DNA of 47,979 bases from Alloalcanivorax xenomutans (GTDB lineage: Bacteria > Pseudomonadota > Gammaproteobacteria > Pseudomonadales > Alcanivoracaceae): positions 1-47,979 of the forward strand of contig NZ_OBMO01000028.1 in NCBI RefSeq assembly GCF_900217905.1, in the 5' to 3' direction. Shown here piece after piece: positions 13,052 through 18,492 of this stretch (position 1 is the stretch's first letter; each line of letters starts with the position of its first letter). The notes below the pieces were generated by a model. The model searched no databases. It was not told where the DNA came from and worked only from the letters and a program-made list of their open reading frames with translations. Made by a program: the position numbers and the translations under genes.

Positions 13052-14704
13052 ATGAAATGGCTCGATGACATGACGGTGAAGCGCAGCTGGGACTGGGTGC
13101 TGCTTGGCTTCAGCGTGATGATTCTGGTGCTTGGTGGGGTGAGCCTGTACGCCTCCCATTTCAGCCGCCAGGCATTCGGTACCCTGGAGCAGATTCACGT
13201 CCGCCAGACCAGCGCCCTGAACCGCACCTACATTGATCTGCTACAGGCCCAGGTGGCCATGGATCGGGCAGCAGAACTGATCCGGGTGCCGTCCTTCGAT
13301 GAACCGGAGCCGGTGATCGACGAGGCCGAGTCCTTGATGAAGGACGCTCGTCAGGCGTTCCAGCGCTTTTTGGAAATCCCCCCGCAACCGCAACAGCAGG
13401 AGGCCATCGATGCGTTGTCGGAGCAGTTGTACGCGTTGCTCAATGTTGGCCTGAGTCTGCAATTGACGGTGCTCAAGGAAGGGGATTTCGCCAGTTATCG
13501 CTCCGGTCGCGGTCGGGTCAGCGACATGAATTACGCTTTCGCCACTGGCGCGGACGCTTTTCTGGAAGCTTCGGAGGAGAGCGCCCGGCGTCTCACCGAA
13601 GGTTTCGAAGGACTGGTGCGACAGGGCGTGGCGGTGTTGGCGGTGACCGTGGCGGCGGCGCTGCTGCTGGTTTTGCTGGTGCGCTGGGGCGTGACAGTGA
13701 ACGTGATCCGGCCGCTGCAGCGTTTATTGACGCATTTCGAGCGCATTGCCGAAGGGGATTTGTCCGCCCGTCTGGAACGTCGTGGCGGTAACGAAATCGG
13801 CCAGTTGTACTCCGGCCTGAGCGCGTTGCAATCGGGATTGGCCAATATCGTGGAGCGGGTGCGCAAAAGTTGCGAGACGCTGCACCGGGGCAGCGCCGGT
13901 ATTGCCAACGGCACCGGCAATCTGTCCTCCCGCTTCGAGCAACTGGCCACGTCATTGGAAGAGACCGCCTCCAGCATGGAACAGCTTACCGCCACGGTGC
14001 GGCGCAATGAGGACCACGCCCGCCAGGGGCATGGCCTGGTCCGCGATGCGCACCGGGTGGCTTCGGAGGGTAGCGAGGTGATGGGCGCGGCGGTGAATCG
14101 CATGGAGCGTTTGCGCGCCGCCGCCGGGCAGATCGCTGAAACCACCAGCGCGATCCAGGGGATTGCCTTGCAGACCAGTATTCTGGCGCTTAACGCCTCG
14201 GTGGAGGCGGCCCGGGCCGGGGAAGAGGGCAGCGGTTTCGCGGTGGTGGCCAAGGAGGTGCGGGATCTGGCGCGGCGCAGCGCCACTCTGGCCAAGGACA
14301 TCGAAACCCGTATGGAGCAAGCCCTAGTGGAAGTGGACGACGGTGTGGCTCTGGTGGGCAAAGCGGGAGGCACCATGGAGCACATTGTCGAGGCGGTGAC
14401 GCGGGTCACCACCATCATGGATGACGTGGCCGTGGCTTCCACTGAACAGGCTCGGGGGATCGAGCAGATCGGCGAAGCGGTGGCGCAGATGGATCAGGTC
14501 ACCCAGCAGAACGTTTCGGTGGTGGCCCGCGCCGCTGACCACGCGGACCATCTGCGCCGCCAGGCGGATGAGCTGATGGCGGCGGTGGCGTCCTTCACCC
14601 TGACGTCCGACGGCCCGGCGTCACCCCCGGGCGAGCTGGAGCAGCCGCGCCTCGGTGTCCGCCCAGCTCAGGCACGCATCGGTAACGGAAACGCCGTAGC
14701 GTAG
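13052..14704 (+). CDS. Methyl-accepting chemotaxis protein
   Basis: This 550-residue inner-membrane chemoreceptor has TM1 at about residues 15-34 and a periplasmic four-helix-bundle-type sensor at about 35-190 that lacks cysteines or obvious metal ligands. TM2 lies at about 191-212 and a HAMP domain at about 213-265. The long cytoplasmic coiled coil has the conserved hairpin tip IALQTSILALNASVEAARAGEEGSGFAVVAKEVRDLA (about 370-406), where CheA and CheW bind. No C-terminal NWETF-type CheR/CheB docking pentapeptide is present. The ligand is unknown. GGGGAAAG precedes the ATG. Its 3' end overlaps the convergent DAHP synthase gene by 84 bp. A 13-bp palindrome, AACGGTTACCGTT (12983-12995), lies in the leader. 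Confidence 0.93.
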   Translation: MKWLDDMTVKRSWDWVLLGFSVMILVLGGVSLYASHFSRQAFGTLEQIHVRQTSALNRTYIDLLQAQVAMDRAAELIRVPSFDEPEPVIDEAESLMKDARQAFQRFLEIPPQPQQQEAIDALSEQLYALLNVGLSLQLTVLKEGDFASYRSGRGRVSDMNYAFATGADAFLEASEESARRLTEGFEGLVRQGVAVLAVTVAAALLLVLLVRWGVTVNVIRPLQRLLTHFERIAEGDLSARLERRGGNEIGQLYSGLSALQSGLANIVERVRKSCETLHRGSAGIANGTGNLSSRFEQLATSLEETASSMEQLTATVRRNEDHARQGHGLVRDAHRVASEGSEVMGAAVNRMERLRAAAGQIAETTSAIQGIALQTSILALNASVEAARAGEEGSGFAVVAKEVRDLARRSATLAKDIETRMEQALVEVDDGVALVGKAGGTMEHIVEAVTRVTTIMDDVAVASTEQARGIEQIGEAVAQMDQVTQQNVSVVARAADHADHLRRQADELMAAVASFTLTSDGPASPPGELEQPRLGVRPAQARIGNGNAVA

Positions 14705-15676
14705 CGATTCGGAAAGGGGTTGGTTGCCGCCGTTGAGGTGGCTTTCCAGCATCACCCCGACCACCGTGCTGTCACCCTGGCGCCGCTGGCGCAGCACCTC
14801 TTCCAGCACCAGCGGCTGGCGGGCCGGGTCCTTGCCGCTGTTGGCATGGCTGCAATCGACCACCAGGCGTGGATTGAGGCCGGCGCTTTCAAGGGCGTTA
14901 CGGGCGGCCAGTACCTGTTCTTCCTGGTAGTTGGGGCCCTGATGGCCGCCGCGCAGCACCAGGTGCGTATCGGCATTGCCCGGTGTTTGCACCAGGGCCG
15001 GATGGCCGTGATCGTCCAGCCCCAGGTGGGTGTGGCCGTGGGCGGCGGCGCCCATGGCGTCGCGGGCCACGGTGACGCTGCCGTCGGTACCGTTCTTGAA
15101 GCCCACCGGCAGCGGCAGGCCGCTGACCATTTCCCGGTGGATCTGTGATTCGGTGGTGCGCGCGCCGATCGCCGCCCAGGCCAGCAGATCGCTCAGGTAG
15201 GAGGCGGCCAGCGGGTTCAACAACTCCGTGGCCAGTGGCAGACCGAGCCACGCCAGGTCGCGCAGCAGCTCCCGGGACAGACGCAGCCCCGTGGCCAGGT
15301 CGTGGCGGCCATCCAGATGCGGATCATAGAGCAACCCTTTCCATCCCACCGTGGTGCGTGGCTTCTCCACGTAAGCGCGCATGACCAGCAGCAATGAATC
15401 GCTCACCTGCTCGGCGAGGCCGGCCAGCCGCTGGCCGTATTCGAGAGCGGATTCGGGATCGTGCAGGGAGCAGGGGCCGGTGATCACCAGCAGGCGATCA
15501 TCCTCGCCGTTGAGGATGGCGCGGACTGCCTGGCGTTGCTGGCGGATGCGAGTCTGCAACCCGGTTTCCAGGGGCAGCGCCTCACGCAGGGCGACAGGGC
15601 TGGGCAGACGTTGGTGGCGGGTTTCCTGGTCCTGGGCTTCGCCGGTTTCGGCCAGGGTGGCGACGGAGGCGTTCAT
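14621..15676 (-). CDS. 3-deoxy-7-phosphoheptulonate (DAHP) synthase, class I
   Basis: The enzyme condenses phosphoenolpyruvate with erythrose 4-phosphate, the first step of the shikimate pathway. The 351 residues match the AroF/AroG/AroH type, with GPCSLHDPESALEYGQRLA, MRAYVEKPRTTVGWKGL, GARTTESQIHREMVSGLPLPVGFKNGTDG and GVMLESHLNGGNQ. I cannot assign the feedback isozyme (Phe, Tyr or Trp), so I give no symbol. The ATG at 15676 is preferred over 15694, because AAGGAAAGG lies just before it. Two aromatic-rich leader peptides and a terminator lie upstream, pointing to attenuation by charged Tyr/Phe/Trp tRNAs. The 3' end overlaps the convergent chemoreceptor gene by 84 bp. Confidence 0.95.
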   Translation of the reverse strand: MNASVATLAETGEAQDQETRHQRLPSPVALREALPLETGLQTRIRQQRQAVRAILNGEDDRLLVITGPCSLHDPESALEYGQRLAGLAEQVSDSLLLVMRAYVEKPRTTVGWKGLLYDPHLDGRHDLATGLRLSRELLRDLAWLGLPLATELLNPLAASYLSDLLAWAAIGARTTESQIHREMVSGLPLPVGFKNGTDGSVTVARDAMGAAAHGHTHLGLDDHGHPALVQTPGNADTHLVLRGGHQGPNYQEEQVLAARNALESAGLNPRLVVDCSHANSGKDPARQPLVLEEVLRQRRQGDSTVVGVMLESHLNGGNQPLSESLRYGVSVTDACLSWADTEARLLQLARG

Positions 15677-15705
15677 AATCCTTTCCTTGAGCAATCAGGC
15701 GCCGA

Positions 15706-15822
15706 TCATCGGCGCAAGGGTGTCGATGGTGGTGTCGAGTCGTGGCGGCGGCCGGCGGTAAGGCCGGCGCCGCTAAATCGCCAGTAGCAAAACAGCGCGA
15801 AGTTACGGTAGTAGCGGTTCAT
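15706..15822 (-). CDS. Aromatic-rich leader peptide 2 of DAHP synthase
   Basis: This is a 38-codon frame with a clear ribosome site (GGAGAG, 6 nt before the ATG at 15822). It ends 29 bp before the DAHP synthase start. Its first half is MNRYYRNFALFCYWRF: seven of the first sixteen residues are Tyr, Phe or Trp. A strong hairpin (15745-15773, stem GCGGC(G)GCCGGC) and a second palindrome over its stop codon (GCGCCGATcATCGGCGC, 15699-15715) follow. Neither has a T tract, so control could be on translation of the synthase rather than on termination. Composition and position are those of a leader peptide; the function is inferred. Confidence 0.72.
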   Translation of the reverse strand: MNRYYRNFALFCYWRFSGAGLTAGRRHDSTPPSTPLRR

Positions 15823-15881
15823 GGCGTCTCTCCATCCTGTTTTCAGTAAAAAAATCCGTGAAAAATGTTATACCCGAAAAT

Positions 15882-15915
15882 GAAAAACCCCCGGTTGGGA
15901 AGCCAACCGGGGGTT
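15882..15915 (-). terminator. Intrinsic terminator/attenuator in aro leader
   Basis: On the minus strand, AACCCCCGGTTGG-CTTC-CCAACCGGGGGTT is a 13-bp perfect stem followed by a T run. It lies 47 nt after the stop codon of leader peptide 1. A competing pairing is visible: GCCAAACC (minus strand of 15920-15927) can pair with GGTTGGC (minus strand of 15902-15908) and would open the terminator stem. A further hairpin, CAGGCG...CGCCTG (15927-15951), sits just upstream. Together these look like a classical attenuator. It may also stop read-through from norB. Confidence 0.85.
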
Positions 15916-15962
15916 CAGGGGTTTGGCAGGCGTCCCGGATCCGGGCGCCTGGGCGGGTGGGC

Positions 15963-16070
15963 TCAGGCGCTCGAGCGGCTAAACCAATACCCGTAAAAAT
16001 AACCGCCACACGCCATCGCCACCGGAGTACCGGCGGTGAATGAAGCGTTGTCAGGGCGTGCGATGGTCAT
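15963..16070 (-). CDS. Aromatic-rich leader peptide 1 of DAHP synthase
   Basis: This 35-codon frame starts at ATG 16070, with GGAG 7 nt upstream. Near its end it encodes YFYGYWF, six aromatic residues out of seven, and stops soon after. The stop is followed by a hairpin (15927-15951) and a strong intrinsic terminator (15882-15915). This is the layout of trp/phe-type attenuators, where a ribosome stalled at aromatic codons lets an antiterminator form. A weak promoter candidate lies upstream on the minus strand (TTGCGG, 17 bp, TAGTCT; plus coordinates 16095-16123). The role is inferred from layout. Confidence 0.72.
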   Translation of the reverse strand: MTIARPDNASFTAGTPVAMACGGYFYGYWFSRSSA

Positions 16071-16170: not shown

Positions 16171-18441
16171 TCAGGCGTTGGACTCCGCCGGCTCCAGGGC
16201 AGGGGCTCGGGAGCCGAACAGCACCCCGGAGACCACCTGCCAGGCCACCGCCAGGGCGCCGATGATGAACACCACATCGCCGAAGGTGCGTACCCAACGC
16301 AGCGTTTGCAGCAGATCTTGTTGCATGAACGCCTCGCTGCGGGCGTACCACATGCCTTCGCTGACACTGGCGTGGAACTGGATCAGGCCCACCGGCAGCA
16401 GACTGGTGGAGATCATCAGCACCAGACCAATATTGAGCAGCCAGAAGCCGTTGCGCATCAGACGGTCACTGAACCGCAGTTGCGGGCGGATATAACGCAA
16501 CACCAGCAGCGTGAAGCCCAGTGCCAGGAAGCCGTAAACACCGAACAGGGCGGCATGAGCATGCACCGGCGTGGTGTTCAGACCCTGGATGTAGTACAGG
16601 GAAATCGGCGGGTTGATCATGAAGCCGAACACCCCGGCGCCGAGCATGTTCCAGAACGCCACCGCCACGAAGCAGGCTACCGGCCACTTCATCTGCTCCA
16701 TCCAGGGGGCCCGCTCGCGCAGCTTGCTGTGTTCCCAGGCTTCGTAGCCGAGTACCACCAGCGGTACCACTTCCAGAGCACTGAAGGTTGCCCCCACCGC
16801 CATCACCGGTGTGGTGGTGCCGGCGAAGTACAGGTGATGGAAGGTGCCGGGCACGCCGCCGAGCAGGAACAGGGACGCGGAGGCCAGGCTGGCGCCGGTG
16901 GCGACGGTGCGGGATACCAGCCCCAGGTTATAGAAAATGAAGGCCAGGGCGGTGGTGGCGAATACTTCGAAGAAGCCTTCCACCCACAGATGCACGATCC
17001 ACCAGCGCCAGTACTCCATGATGGAAAGGTGAGTGCGCTCGCCGTAGAAGAAGCCGGCGCCGTAGAACAGACCGATGGCGGTCACCGAGGCGGTGAGCAG
17101 CACCAGCAGATGTTTGTCGCCGGGTTGGCGCAAGGCCGGGCCGATACCGCGCAGCATCAATACCAGCCAGAAGGCGACGCCGGTGAACTTGCCGATCTGC
17201 CACAGACGGCCCAGATCCACGTACTCATAGCCCTGATGACCGAGCCAGAAGTTCAGGTTCTCCGGCATGATCTGGGCGATGGCGAGGTAGTTGCCGACGA
17301 AGGAACCGACCACCACAACCACCAGCGCCCAGAACAGAACATCGACGCCGAGCTTCTGGAACTTCGGATCCTTGCCGCCGTTGATGATCGGTGCCAGGAA
17401 CAGACCGGCGGCGAGGAAGCCGGTGGCGATCCAGAACAGCGCACTCTGGATATGCCAGGTGCGAAGCAGCGAGTAGGGGAAGTATTGAGACAGCTCGAAG
17501 CCGTAGAAATGCTGCCCTTCCACGGTGTAGTGCGCCACCGCTCCCCCGAGGAACACCTGGAAGGTGAAGAGTGCCACCACCAGGAACAGGTATTTCCCCA
17601 GTGCCTTTTGCGATGGCGTCAGAGAGACCAGACTGAGCGGGTCGCGGGCGGGGGCCGGCGGCTCATCATCATGGCGACGCAGGAAGGCCCAGCCCAGGAT
17701 CAGGAAACCAACACCGGCGATCAGCAGGATGACGCTGACGATGGACCAGATGATGTTCTCGGCGGTGGGCACGTTGTCGATCAACGGCTCGTGGGGCCAG
17801 TTGTTGGTGTAGGTGGCTTCCCCGTCGGGGCGCTCGGTGGCCGCCGCCCAGGCGGTCCAGAAGAAAAATTGAGTGAGCGCCCGCCGGCGGCTTTCACTGG
17901 GCAGAGTGCCTTCCTTCATGGCGTAGCTTTGCCGTGTGCCACGCAGTTCCGGCGCGTCGCCGAACAGCCGTGAATAATAGTCCGCGGTCAGTGCCATGGC
18001 TTCGGCGCGCCGGTTGCTGACCGTCAGGGTACCGTCACTTTGCTGGAAGGTGTTGGTGCGGTAGGCATCGCGCAACGCTCGTTGCAGCATCGCCTGATGT
18101 TCGCTGTCCAGGGCGTCATAGGACTGGCCGTAACGTTCCCGGGCGGCCAGCTCCAGCCAGTGGATCAGCTCCCGGTGCAGCCAGTCGGCGGTCCAGTCCG
18201 GCGCTTGATAGGCGCCGTGTCCCCAGATTGATCCCAGTTGCATGCCGCCCACGGATTGCCAGGCGGTTTGGCCGTCGAGAATGTCGTCCTGGGTCATCAG
18301 TACGGTGCCGTCCTCGGTCACCACCCGATCCGGGATCGGCGGCGCCTTGCGGTAGACCTCGGTACCGAAGTAGCCGAGCAGCGCGAACGTGACCGCCAGA
18401 ACGGCGATCAGCGTCCACCAGAGTTTGCGGTAGTGGGCCAT
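16171..18441 (-). CDS. norB: Nitric oxide reductase, quinol-dependent (qNOR)
   Basis: This enzyme reduces 2 NO to N2O using quinol, in the inner membrane. It has 756 residues and is the long single-subunit type: an extra N-terminal part (TM near 8-27 plus a periplasmic region to about 215) is fused to a NorB-like heme-copper oxidase core of about 12 membrane segments. The conserved core includes HLWVEGFFEVFATTALAFIF and HAHAALFGVYGFLALG. The ATG at 18441 is preceded by AGGAGG, and an upstream in-frame start at 18486 is less likely. Two NsrR-type operators lie 52-99 bp upstream, so induction by NO is expected. It is divergent in function but same-strand with the NnrS gene upstream. Confidence 0.95.
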   Translation of the reverse strand: MAHYRKLWWTLIAVLAVTFALLGYFGTEVYRKAPPIPDRVVTEDGTVLMTQDDILDGQTAWQSVGGMQLGSIWGHGAYQAPDWTADWLHRELIHWLELAARERYGQSYDALDSEHQAMLQRALRDAYRTNTFQQSDGTLTVSNRRAEAMALTADYYSRLFGDAPELRGTRQSYAMKEGTLPSESRRRALTQFFFWTAWAAATERPDGEATYTNNWPHEPLIDNVPTAENIIWSIVSVILLIAGVGFLILGWAFLRRHDDEPPAPARDPLSLVSLTPSQKALGKYLFLVVALFTFQVFLGGAVAHYTVEGQHFYGFELSQYFPYSLLRTWHIQSALFWIATGFLAAGLFLAPIINGGKDPKFQKLGVDVLFWALVVVVVGSFVGNYLAIAQIMPENLNFWLGHQGYEYVDLGRLWQIGKFTGVAFWLVLMLRGIGPALRQPGDKHLLVLLTASVTAIGLFYGAGFFYGERTHLSIMEYWRWWIVHLWVEGFFEVFATTALAFIFYNLGLVSRTVATGASLASASLFLLGGVPGTFHHLYFAGTTTPVMAVGATFSALEVVPLVVLGYEAWEHSKLRERAPWMEQMKWPVACFVAVAFWNMLGAGVFGFMINPPISLYYIQGLNTTPVHAHAALFGVYGFLALGFTLLVLRYIRPQLRFSDRLMRNGFWLLNIGLVLMISTSLLPVGLIQFHASVSEGMWYARSEAFMQQDLLQTLRWVRTFGDVVFIIGALAVAWQVVSGVLFGSRAPALEPAESNA

Positions 18442-18492
18442 GGTCGGGTCCTCCTGTTGATCCATGGGCATGGGGTTGGCGAACAAGCTTTA

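Follow-up and report, generated by a model that had tools for sequence, protein, structure and literature searches.

A conserved aromatic-rich second leader frame between a predicted attenuator and a DAHP synthase gene in Pseudomonas and its relatives

The gene for a class I DAHP synthase in Alloalcanivorax xenomutans is preceded by two short aromatic-rich reading frames in series. We analysed a stretch of 47,979 nucleotides of this bacterium (contig NZ_OBMO01000028.1 of assembly GCF_900217905.1, a genome of 4.35 Mb), hereafter the window, together with loci gathered around related synthases. The comparison shows that the attenuator formed with leader 1 is followed by a conserved and, by its codon statistics, coding leader rich in aromatic codons, leader 2 (L2), with a conserved start codon and Shine-Dalgarno (SD) site. 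We consider it rather probable that L2 senses the charging of aromatic tRNAs and acts in cis on translation of the synthase, after leader 1. The sign and mechanism of this control we infer from the arrangement of the leader and the RNA downstream of it.

Results

Two leader frames before the synthase gene

The features of the locus, all on the minus strand, are listed in Table 1. An earlier note on the window had described a small frame with a good ribosome site after the terminator. Indeed, GGAG (15833-15830) stands 7 nt 5' of the L2 ATG, which lies 62 nt past the terminator of leader 1 (15916-15885), and the frame (15822..15706, minus strand; MNRYYRNFALFCYWRFSGAGLTAGRRHDSTPPSTPLRR) ends, just where the note had placed it, 29 nt before the synthase ATG (15676). 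The seven aromatics that the note had counted among the first 16 residues are 3 Tyr, 3 Phe and 1 Trp (binomial probability of at least seven, 1.3e-4 at a background of 8%), and the second half of the window L2 is almost without aromatic residues. The most conserved part of L2, beyond what holds for the peptide alone, is the nucleotide string TGGCGATTTAGC (15783-15772). In the genome, TGGCGATTTA occurs at four places, L2 and three others.

Table 1. Features of the DAHP synthase leader in the window
Feature	Coordinates	Strand	Basis
Leader 1 ORF, MTIARPDNASFTAGTPVAMACGGYFYGYWFSRSSA	15963..16070	-	ORF list; ..YWFS.. leader in relatives
RF00627 'P15' RNA: 3' part of leader 1, hairpins and terminator	15888..16005	-	Rfam
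Intrinsic terminator of the first attenuator	15885..15916	-	14-pair stem and T tract
Leader 2 SD, GGAGAG	15828..15833	-	sequence
Leader 2 (L2) ORF, 38 aa, first 16 residues aromatic-rich	15706..15822	-	ORF list, comparison
L2 core TGG CGA TTT AGC (W-R-F-S)	15772..15783	-	conserved in unique L2s
Hairpin directly 3' of the core, 11 pairs, one bulge	15745..15773	-	fold, pairs by eye
7-bp hairpin GCGCCGA-TGA-TCGGCGC, L2 stop in loop	15699..15715	-	sequence and fold
DAHP synthase SD, AAGGA	15684..15688	-	sequence
Class I DAHP synthase, 351 aa, putative target	14621..15676	-	Pfam DAHP_synth_1, E 1.2e-75

A terminator scan of the window found no T-tract terminator after L2, the terminator of leader 1 being its sole match, which bears out the claim that the hairpins of L2 lack T tracts. 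L2 has the run of codons for products of the pathway that characterizes the leader peptide of an amino-acid attenuator. The intrinsic terminator that characterizes a transcription attenuator, however, is present in the window at leader 1 and not at L2. Since no terminator lies between L2 and the synthase in the window, we do not class L2 as a transcription attenuator. The same strand also carries, immediately 5' of leader 1, a 771-aa frame (16171-18486, minus strand), which we take to resemble a quinol-type nitric oxide reductase.

The first stage of the leader is a member of P15, the leader 1 region matching the Rfam covariance model RF00627 with a score of 70.6 bits against a gathering score of 70; of seven relatives that were scanned, four matched as well. 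Rfam classes P15 as a gene, 'Pseudomonas sRNA P15'. The model stops at the terminator, leaving L2 outside, and L2 itself gave no Rfam match at the gathering score in the window and 7 relatives. Among the loci, P15 coincides with an aromatic leader peptide and a terminator before a DAHP synthase in the window and in L038, L104, L053 and L195. P15 is probably the terminated product of the attenuator rather than a free sRNA. Four peptides tested against NCBIfam and Pfam placed neither leader in a known protein family. The accessible part of one report goes no further than to suggest that P15 may be a riboswitch (PMC2527527), and that of another mentions PA1750 only as one of several sRNA-bait hits (PMC4263517).

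Distribution of L2 among relatives

The search around related synthases gave 226 loci, of which eight paralogues or other genes were excluded; the remaining 218 include near relatives and duplicates (for example L032/L004, L157/L117 and L110/L025), and genomes with only a paralogue-like match (about 50-55% identity) are left out of them. The homologous frames that the earlier note proposed to look for upstream of DAHP synthases were found: 174 of the 218 loci carry an L2 with the motif W-R-F (WRF-type), and 24 carry a looser RF-type, a class whose regular expression also accepts the RY of MYRY, so that it includes L006, L027 and L194, in which RF is not clear; L187 has RF but no Trp. Twenty loci have neither type. 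At two of these (L178 and L185) an aromatic frame of divergent sequence occupies the position of L2; in the other 18 the leader 1 terminator lies 15-63 nt before the synthase (for L172 and L181 by a separate reading of the locus), leaving no room for L2. At loci with a WRF-type L2 the terminator lies at least 138 nt from the synthase (167 of 174 measured; the upper end of about 320 nt is rough, the distances coming from regular expressions, with a value of 387 for L180 based on a wrong start codon and 349 or 212 for L186, depending on the reading).

WRF-type frames make up 78 of the 80 named loci (2 RF-type), 58 of the 61 loci classified in family f21 out of a search of 119 genomes (3 RF-type), and 31 of the 37 in family f37, which we take to be Halomonadaceae (1 RF-type, 5 with none). 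Near the window L2 is patchy. The window's own family (37 genomes) has 4 WRF-type, 18 RF-type and 15 with none, and its genus (13 genomes) 4, 1 and 8, respectively; L2 is dispensable, as these 15 and 8 genomes do without it. On a tree of 59 synthases and one paralogue, with 48 labelled as having L2 (the two divergent ones counted) and 11 as lacking it, parsimony required 5 changes. We read L2 as an old feature that was probably lost several times.

Copies of the Alcanivorax type starting with MYRY were seen at L016, L018, L019, L021-L028, L030, L112, L113, L115 and L116; those of them that were read at the DNA level have many rare CGA codons, and several finish with CGA CGA before the stop. 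At the paralogous DAHP synthase of the window's genome (L122) the regular expression for leader 1 found no match. L125 and L126 (family f20) have paralogue-like synthases (about 50-55% identity) with an upstream aromatic frame of their own (in L126, ..FFWWFGYGFYFSQ..), where the string TTTTAGCC and a terminator-like hairpin are found; no L2 was seen at either locus.

L2 behaves as a coding frame

The earlier note had asked for the conservation of aromatic residues at the codon level. In 160 unique WRF-type L2s, aromatic codons take up 31.8% of the 12 positions before the core when read in frame; the two alternative frames have 2.5% and 6.6%, and the part after the core 1.1%. Most of this is Tyr, whose share (159 sequences) falls from 25.6% ahead of the core to 0.2% behind it and is 1.9% in the start of the synthase. 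Pairwise pN/pS before the core, calculated in all groups from pairs that are not independent, was likewise lowest in frame. For the Pseudomonas pseudoknot group (49 unique sequences, 993 pairs) the in-frame value was 0.37 and the two out-of-frame values were 1.62 and 0.71; the four-member clade of the window gave 0.16 in frame and 0.60 and 0.51 out of it, and f37 (8 pairs) 0.46 in frame and 1.07 and 0.91 out of it. The short forms showed a less marked difference, with 0.63 in frame and 0.92 and 0.83 in the other frames. After the core, pN/pS was 0.65-0.88 in the three larger groups and 0.15, from very few changes, in the window's clade. The comparison thus speaks for conservation of the reading frame, where its lack would have told against the note.

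A fixed core shared by both leaders

The aromatic block leads to a core with the consensus TGG CGA TTT A(G/C)C. Of 160 unique L2s, 155 have CGA and 156 have TTT there, statistics that are conditioned on the peptide motif W-R-[FYW]. Both codons are rare in the synthases of the same loci, CGA encoding 3.8% of the Arg residues and TTT 7.7% of the Phe residues, and reach 27% and 46%, respectively, in the rest of L2. In leader 1 the corresponding box is TGG TTT AGC; of 169 unique copies selected for a W-F motif, 165 have TTT and 154 have AGC. The description of L2 as a second, 'different' leader has to be qualified in that both leaders carry TGG(CGA)TTTAGC, with the synonymous sites nearly fixed. 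Sensing of tRNA alone leaves the fixed CGA and TTT codons unexplained. As a possible partner of the core, a complement in cis was rejected: GCTAAA was present in 0 of 226 loci, and other partial complements in 1 to 11.

RNA structure between the core and the synthase start

Of the 174 WRF-type L2s, 95 (72 of Pseudomonas and 23 of f37) are predicted to form a gapless H-type pseudoknot that starts 5 nt past the core. Stem a has 8 pairs and stem b 6, with at least 6 and at least 5 of them formed, respectively, and the loops are of 8, 1 and 9 nt. In 30 non-redundant sequences (at least 4 differences in 51 nt), 96.9% of the cells of the pseudoknot were paired, compared with 93.3% in shuffles (0 of 500 as high), and 12 cells had changed on both sides, compared with 3.0 in shuffles (0 of 500). 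When the partner was slid as a control, at most 54.2% of the cells paired. One column pair of stem a (21/45) is unpaired in 9 of the 30 sequences. At L117, L157, L158 and L160 of f37 (L117 and L157 being the same place), stem a is kept and stem b, read by eye, is apparently shifted. The pseudoknot is absent from the short forms of Pseudomonadaceae. A scan of 369 genomes of the class with a model of the pseudoknot, under stricter filters and with few close relatives among them, gave one match, which lies 5' of the synthase in G240, an f37 genome that the set already included. Frameshifting before the pseudoknot was considered and rejected: the offset to the synthase varies modulo 3, and the other frames, none of them conserved, reach the synthase start only in part of the sequences.

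In the short forms, complementarity to the synthase start is lower elsewhere in L2 and peaks at the core, with 14.5 against 11.9 in shuffles. Strong complementarity of the core to the ribosome-binding site was found in 12 of 35 non-redundant short forms, where 2.0 were expected, and in 11 of 35 when the position is moved on by six nt. In f37 the pairing is weak (3 of 25 against 1.0 expected) and not above that of some other windows within L2; 0 of 11 sequences were strong in the Pseudomonas pseudoknot group, and none was seen in the one representative of the window's clade. A universal core-to-start helix was accordingly rejected, the pairing being restricted to part of the groups.

In the window the 11-pair hairpin starts inside the AGC codon of the core and occupies the position that the pseudoknot has in other species. 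Its sequence is nearly identical in three close congeners, with one unpaired position in L032 (Alloalcanivorax balearicus, a close relative whose synthase is 97% identical to that of the window). The whole 225-nt stretch of the window folds only moderately better than shuffles (z -1.79). From the L2 stop to the synthase SD, folding was stronger than in mononucleotide shuffles (z < -1) among the short forms in 53 of 55, among the Pseudomonas pseudoknot forms in 66 of 67, in the window's clade in 4 of 4, and in f37 in 8 of the 10 sequences that were long enough. In addition, 14 of the 22 unique f37 loci that carry the pseudoknot have their L2 stop at most 6 nt from the synthase ATG. Layouts of these two kinds, the stop hairpin and the overlapping stop, would tie translation of L2 to initiation on the synthase.

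Relation of the two stages

A promoter between the two leaders would make them independent of each other, as the earlier note had pointed out. Across 165 loci the best sigma-70 score between the leaders was 7.54, against 7.59 in shuffles, and the best score upstream of leader 1 was 8.66, against 8.12. In the window itself no sigma-70-like site reaching 9/12 was found between them. Since there is no sigma-70-like signal above shuffles between the leaders, the simplest reading is that both are carried on one transcript. From the proposal of two aromatic sensors in series, what stands is a second leader frame after a transcriptional attenuator, widely conserved; that it senses aromatics belongs to the model discussed below.

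Discussion

We suggest that L2 is a translated leader, with a block of codons for aromatic residues that over the species compared are mainly Tyr, and that it would work on those transcripts that escaped the P15 attenuator. When charged aromatic tRNA is scarce, the ribosome would slow or stop on the aromatic block or the core, allowing different pairings downstream and changing access to the synthase start. The route may differ between groups. In the short-form Pseudomonadaceae, in a manner resembling erm, the free core would pair with the synthase start, and a stalled ribosome would mask the core and free the site. In f37, in which L2 often terminates at the synthase start, translational coupling would connect the two, and in the species of the window the switch would operate through the core hairpin and the hairpin at the stop codon. 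Two stages in series would widen the range of control. We tentatively place the second stage at translation rather than transcription because no terminator follows L2 in the window and there is structure at the L2 stop and synthase start, and also because L2 of f37 often stops near the synthase ATG and the core tends to pair with the ribosome-binding site in one subgroup. Several points stand against this model. The stop layouts suggest positive coupling, which combined with plain starvation stalling would have the wrong sign for a biosynthetic gene, and the core-to-start pairing is confined to the short forms and weak in f37. To these are added the pair of stem a that is often unformed, the weaker frame signal of the short forms, the patchy presence of L2 near the window and the fixed CGA and TTT codons. 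More tentatively, and with clearly less confidence than in tRNA sensing, L2 may be regarded as a composite switch of new design, in which a Tyr-rich block leads to a W-R(CGA)-F(TTT) pause box and then to an H-type pseudoknot, a hairpin or a core-to-start helix. L2 would then control translation in series with an attenuator that carries the same TGG..TTTAGC box; either the ribosome or a common factor would recognize this box in both leaders.

The main rival to sensing of tRNA charging is arrest by an excess of amino acid, which we hold to be unlikely. Here the peptide (..Y..WRF) would stop the ribosome at W-R(CGA)-F when free aromatics are abundant, with the help of a roadblock after the core; the L2 stop would not be reached, coupling would be lost, and the excess would lower the amount of enzyme. 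Such a scheme would make use of W-R-F with its nearly fixed rare CGA and TTT codons, of the pseudoknot so close behind the core, and of the coupling-type layouts at the L2 stop. In known arrest peptides, however, the upstream residues do not vary in number and place as the Tyr residues of L2 do, copies of the Alcanivorax type mostly have RF..W in place of W-R-F, and the short forms are without the pseudoknot. We give still less weight to Rho-dependent termination, in which a ribosome on L2 would cover or expose a C-rich stretch after the core. This stretch is, by eye, C-rich and G-poor in many sequences, and the window has no intrinsic terminator after L2, but stalling upstream on starvation would expose the site and lower expression, again the wrong sign.

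It is improbable, in our estimate, that L2 is a small protein or trans-acting RNA with a job of its own that merely shares the transcript. Its C-terminal half is weakly constrained (pN/pS 0.65 to 0.88 in the three larger groups, the 0.15 of the window's clade coming from too few changes to weigh here), which argues against such a role. Leader peptides with roles in trans do exist, peTrpL being one (PMC7298713); the pseudoknot forms a distinct RNA domain, and the search for L2 was made mainly at this synthase. Finally, short frames rich in GC are common and 18 of the 218 loci have no L2, as would be expected of an ordinary spacer with a chance ORF. To this explanation we assign hardly any probability, and the comparison refutes it: place, frame, core, structure and codon bias are conserved in three families. 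A chance origin is excluded because most relatives have a like frame in the same place; in the genus of the window the count is only 4 to 5 of 13 genomes.

If sensing of tRNA charging by L2 is correct, the first enzyme of the aromatic pathway in Pseudomonas and its relatives would be governed by two serial amino-acid sensors, one acting on transcription and one on translation. The Rfam 'sRNA' P15 would be the first half of this device, and the new pseudoknot element part of the second. It would also explain the conserved stretch between terminator and gene (at least 138 nt where measured), and offer a testable system for the range and sharpness gained by stacking leader peptides. L2 may be relevant to the engineering of aromatic production in P. 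putida.

Titles and openings of abstracts on P15, PA1750 and aromatic leaders, in a search that lay outside most subscription journals, contained no second leader before this synthase; PMC2965389 does not mention DAHP, aroF, aromatic or P15. Tandem leader ORFs and the P15 first stage are known, and L2 as a second aromatic leader in series appears to be new. As in pheL and trpL, where a run of control codons precedes structured RNA, the RNA that follows the codon block of L2 is without those codons. The T-tract terminator that defines transcriptional attenuation in pheL and trpL, however, is missing from L2 and present at leader 1. Among translational attenuators, ermA has two leader peptides, and in erm the stalling of a ribosome on the leader frees the start site. 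The same arrangement of two leader frames before the gene is found in ermB, also a translational attenuator, where a ribosome stalled on a leader induces the gene (PMC8274638). The erm systems differ from the L2 locus in that stalling is induced by a drug and in having no upstream transcriptional attenuator with aromatic control codons. The mgtCBR leader of Salmonella, with its tandem attenuators mgtM and mgtP, likewise places two short ORFs one after the other, one of which works through its Pro codons; both stages act on transcription and sense different signals (PMC3641672). The L2 locus also has two ORFs, with no promoter signal between them. It differs from mgtCBR in the aromatic content of both frames, in the lack of an intrinsic terminator at L2, in its biosynthetic target and in the pseudoknot that many copies carry.
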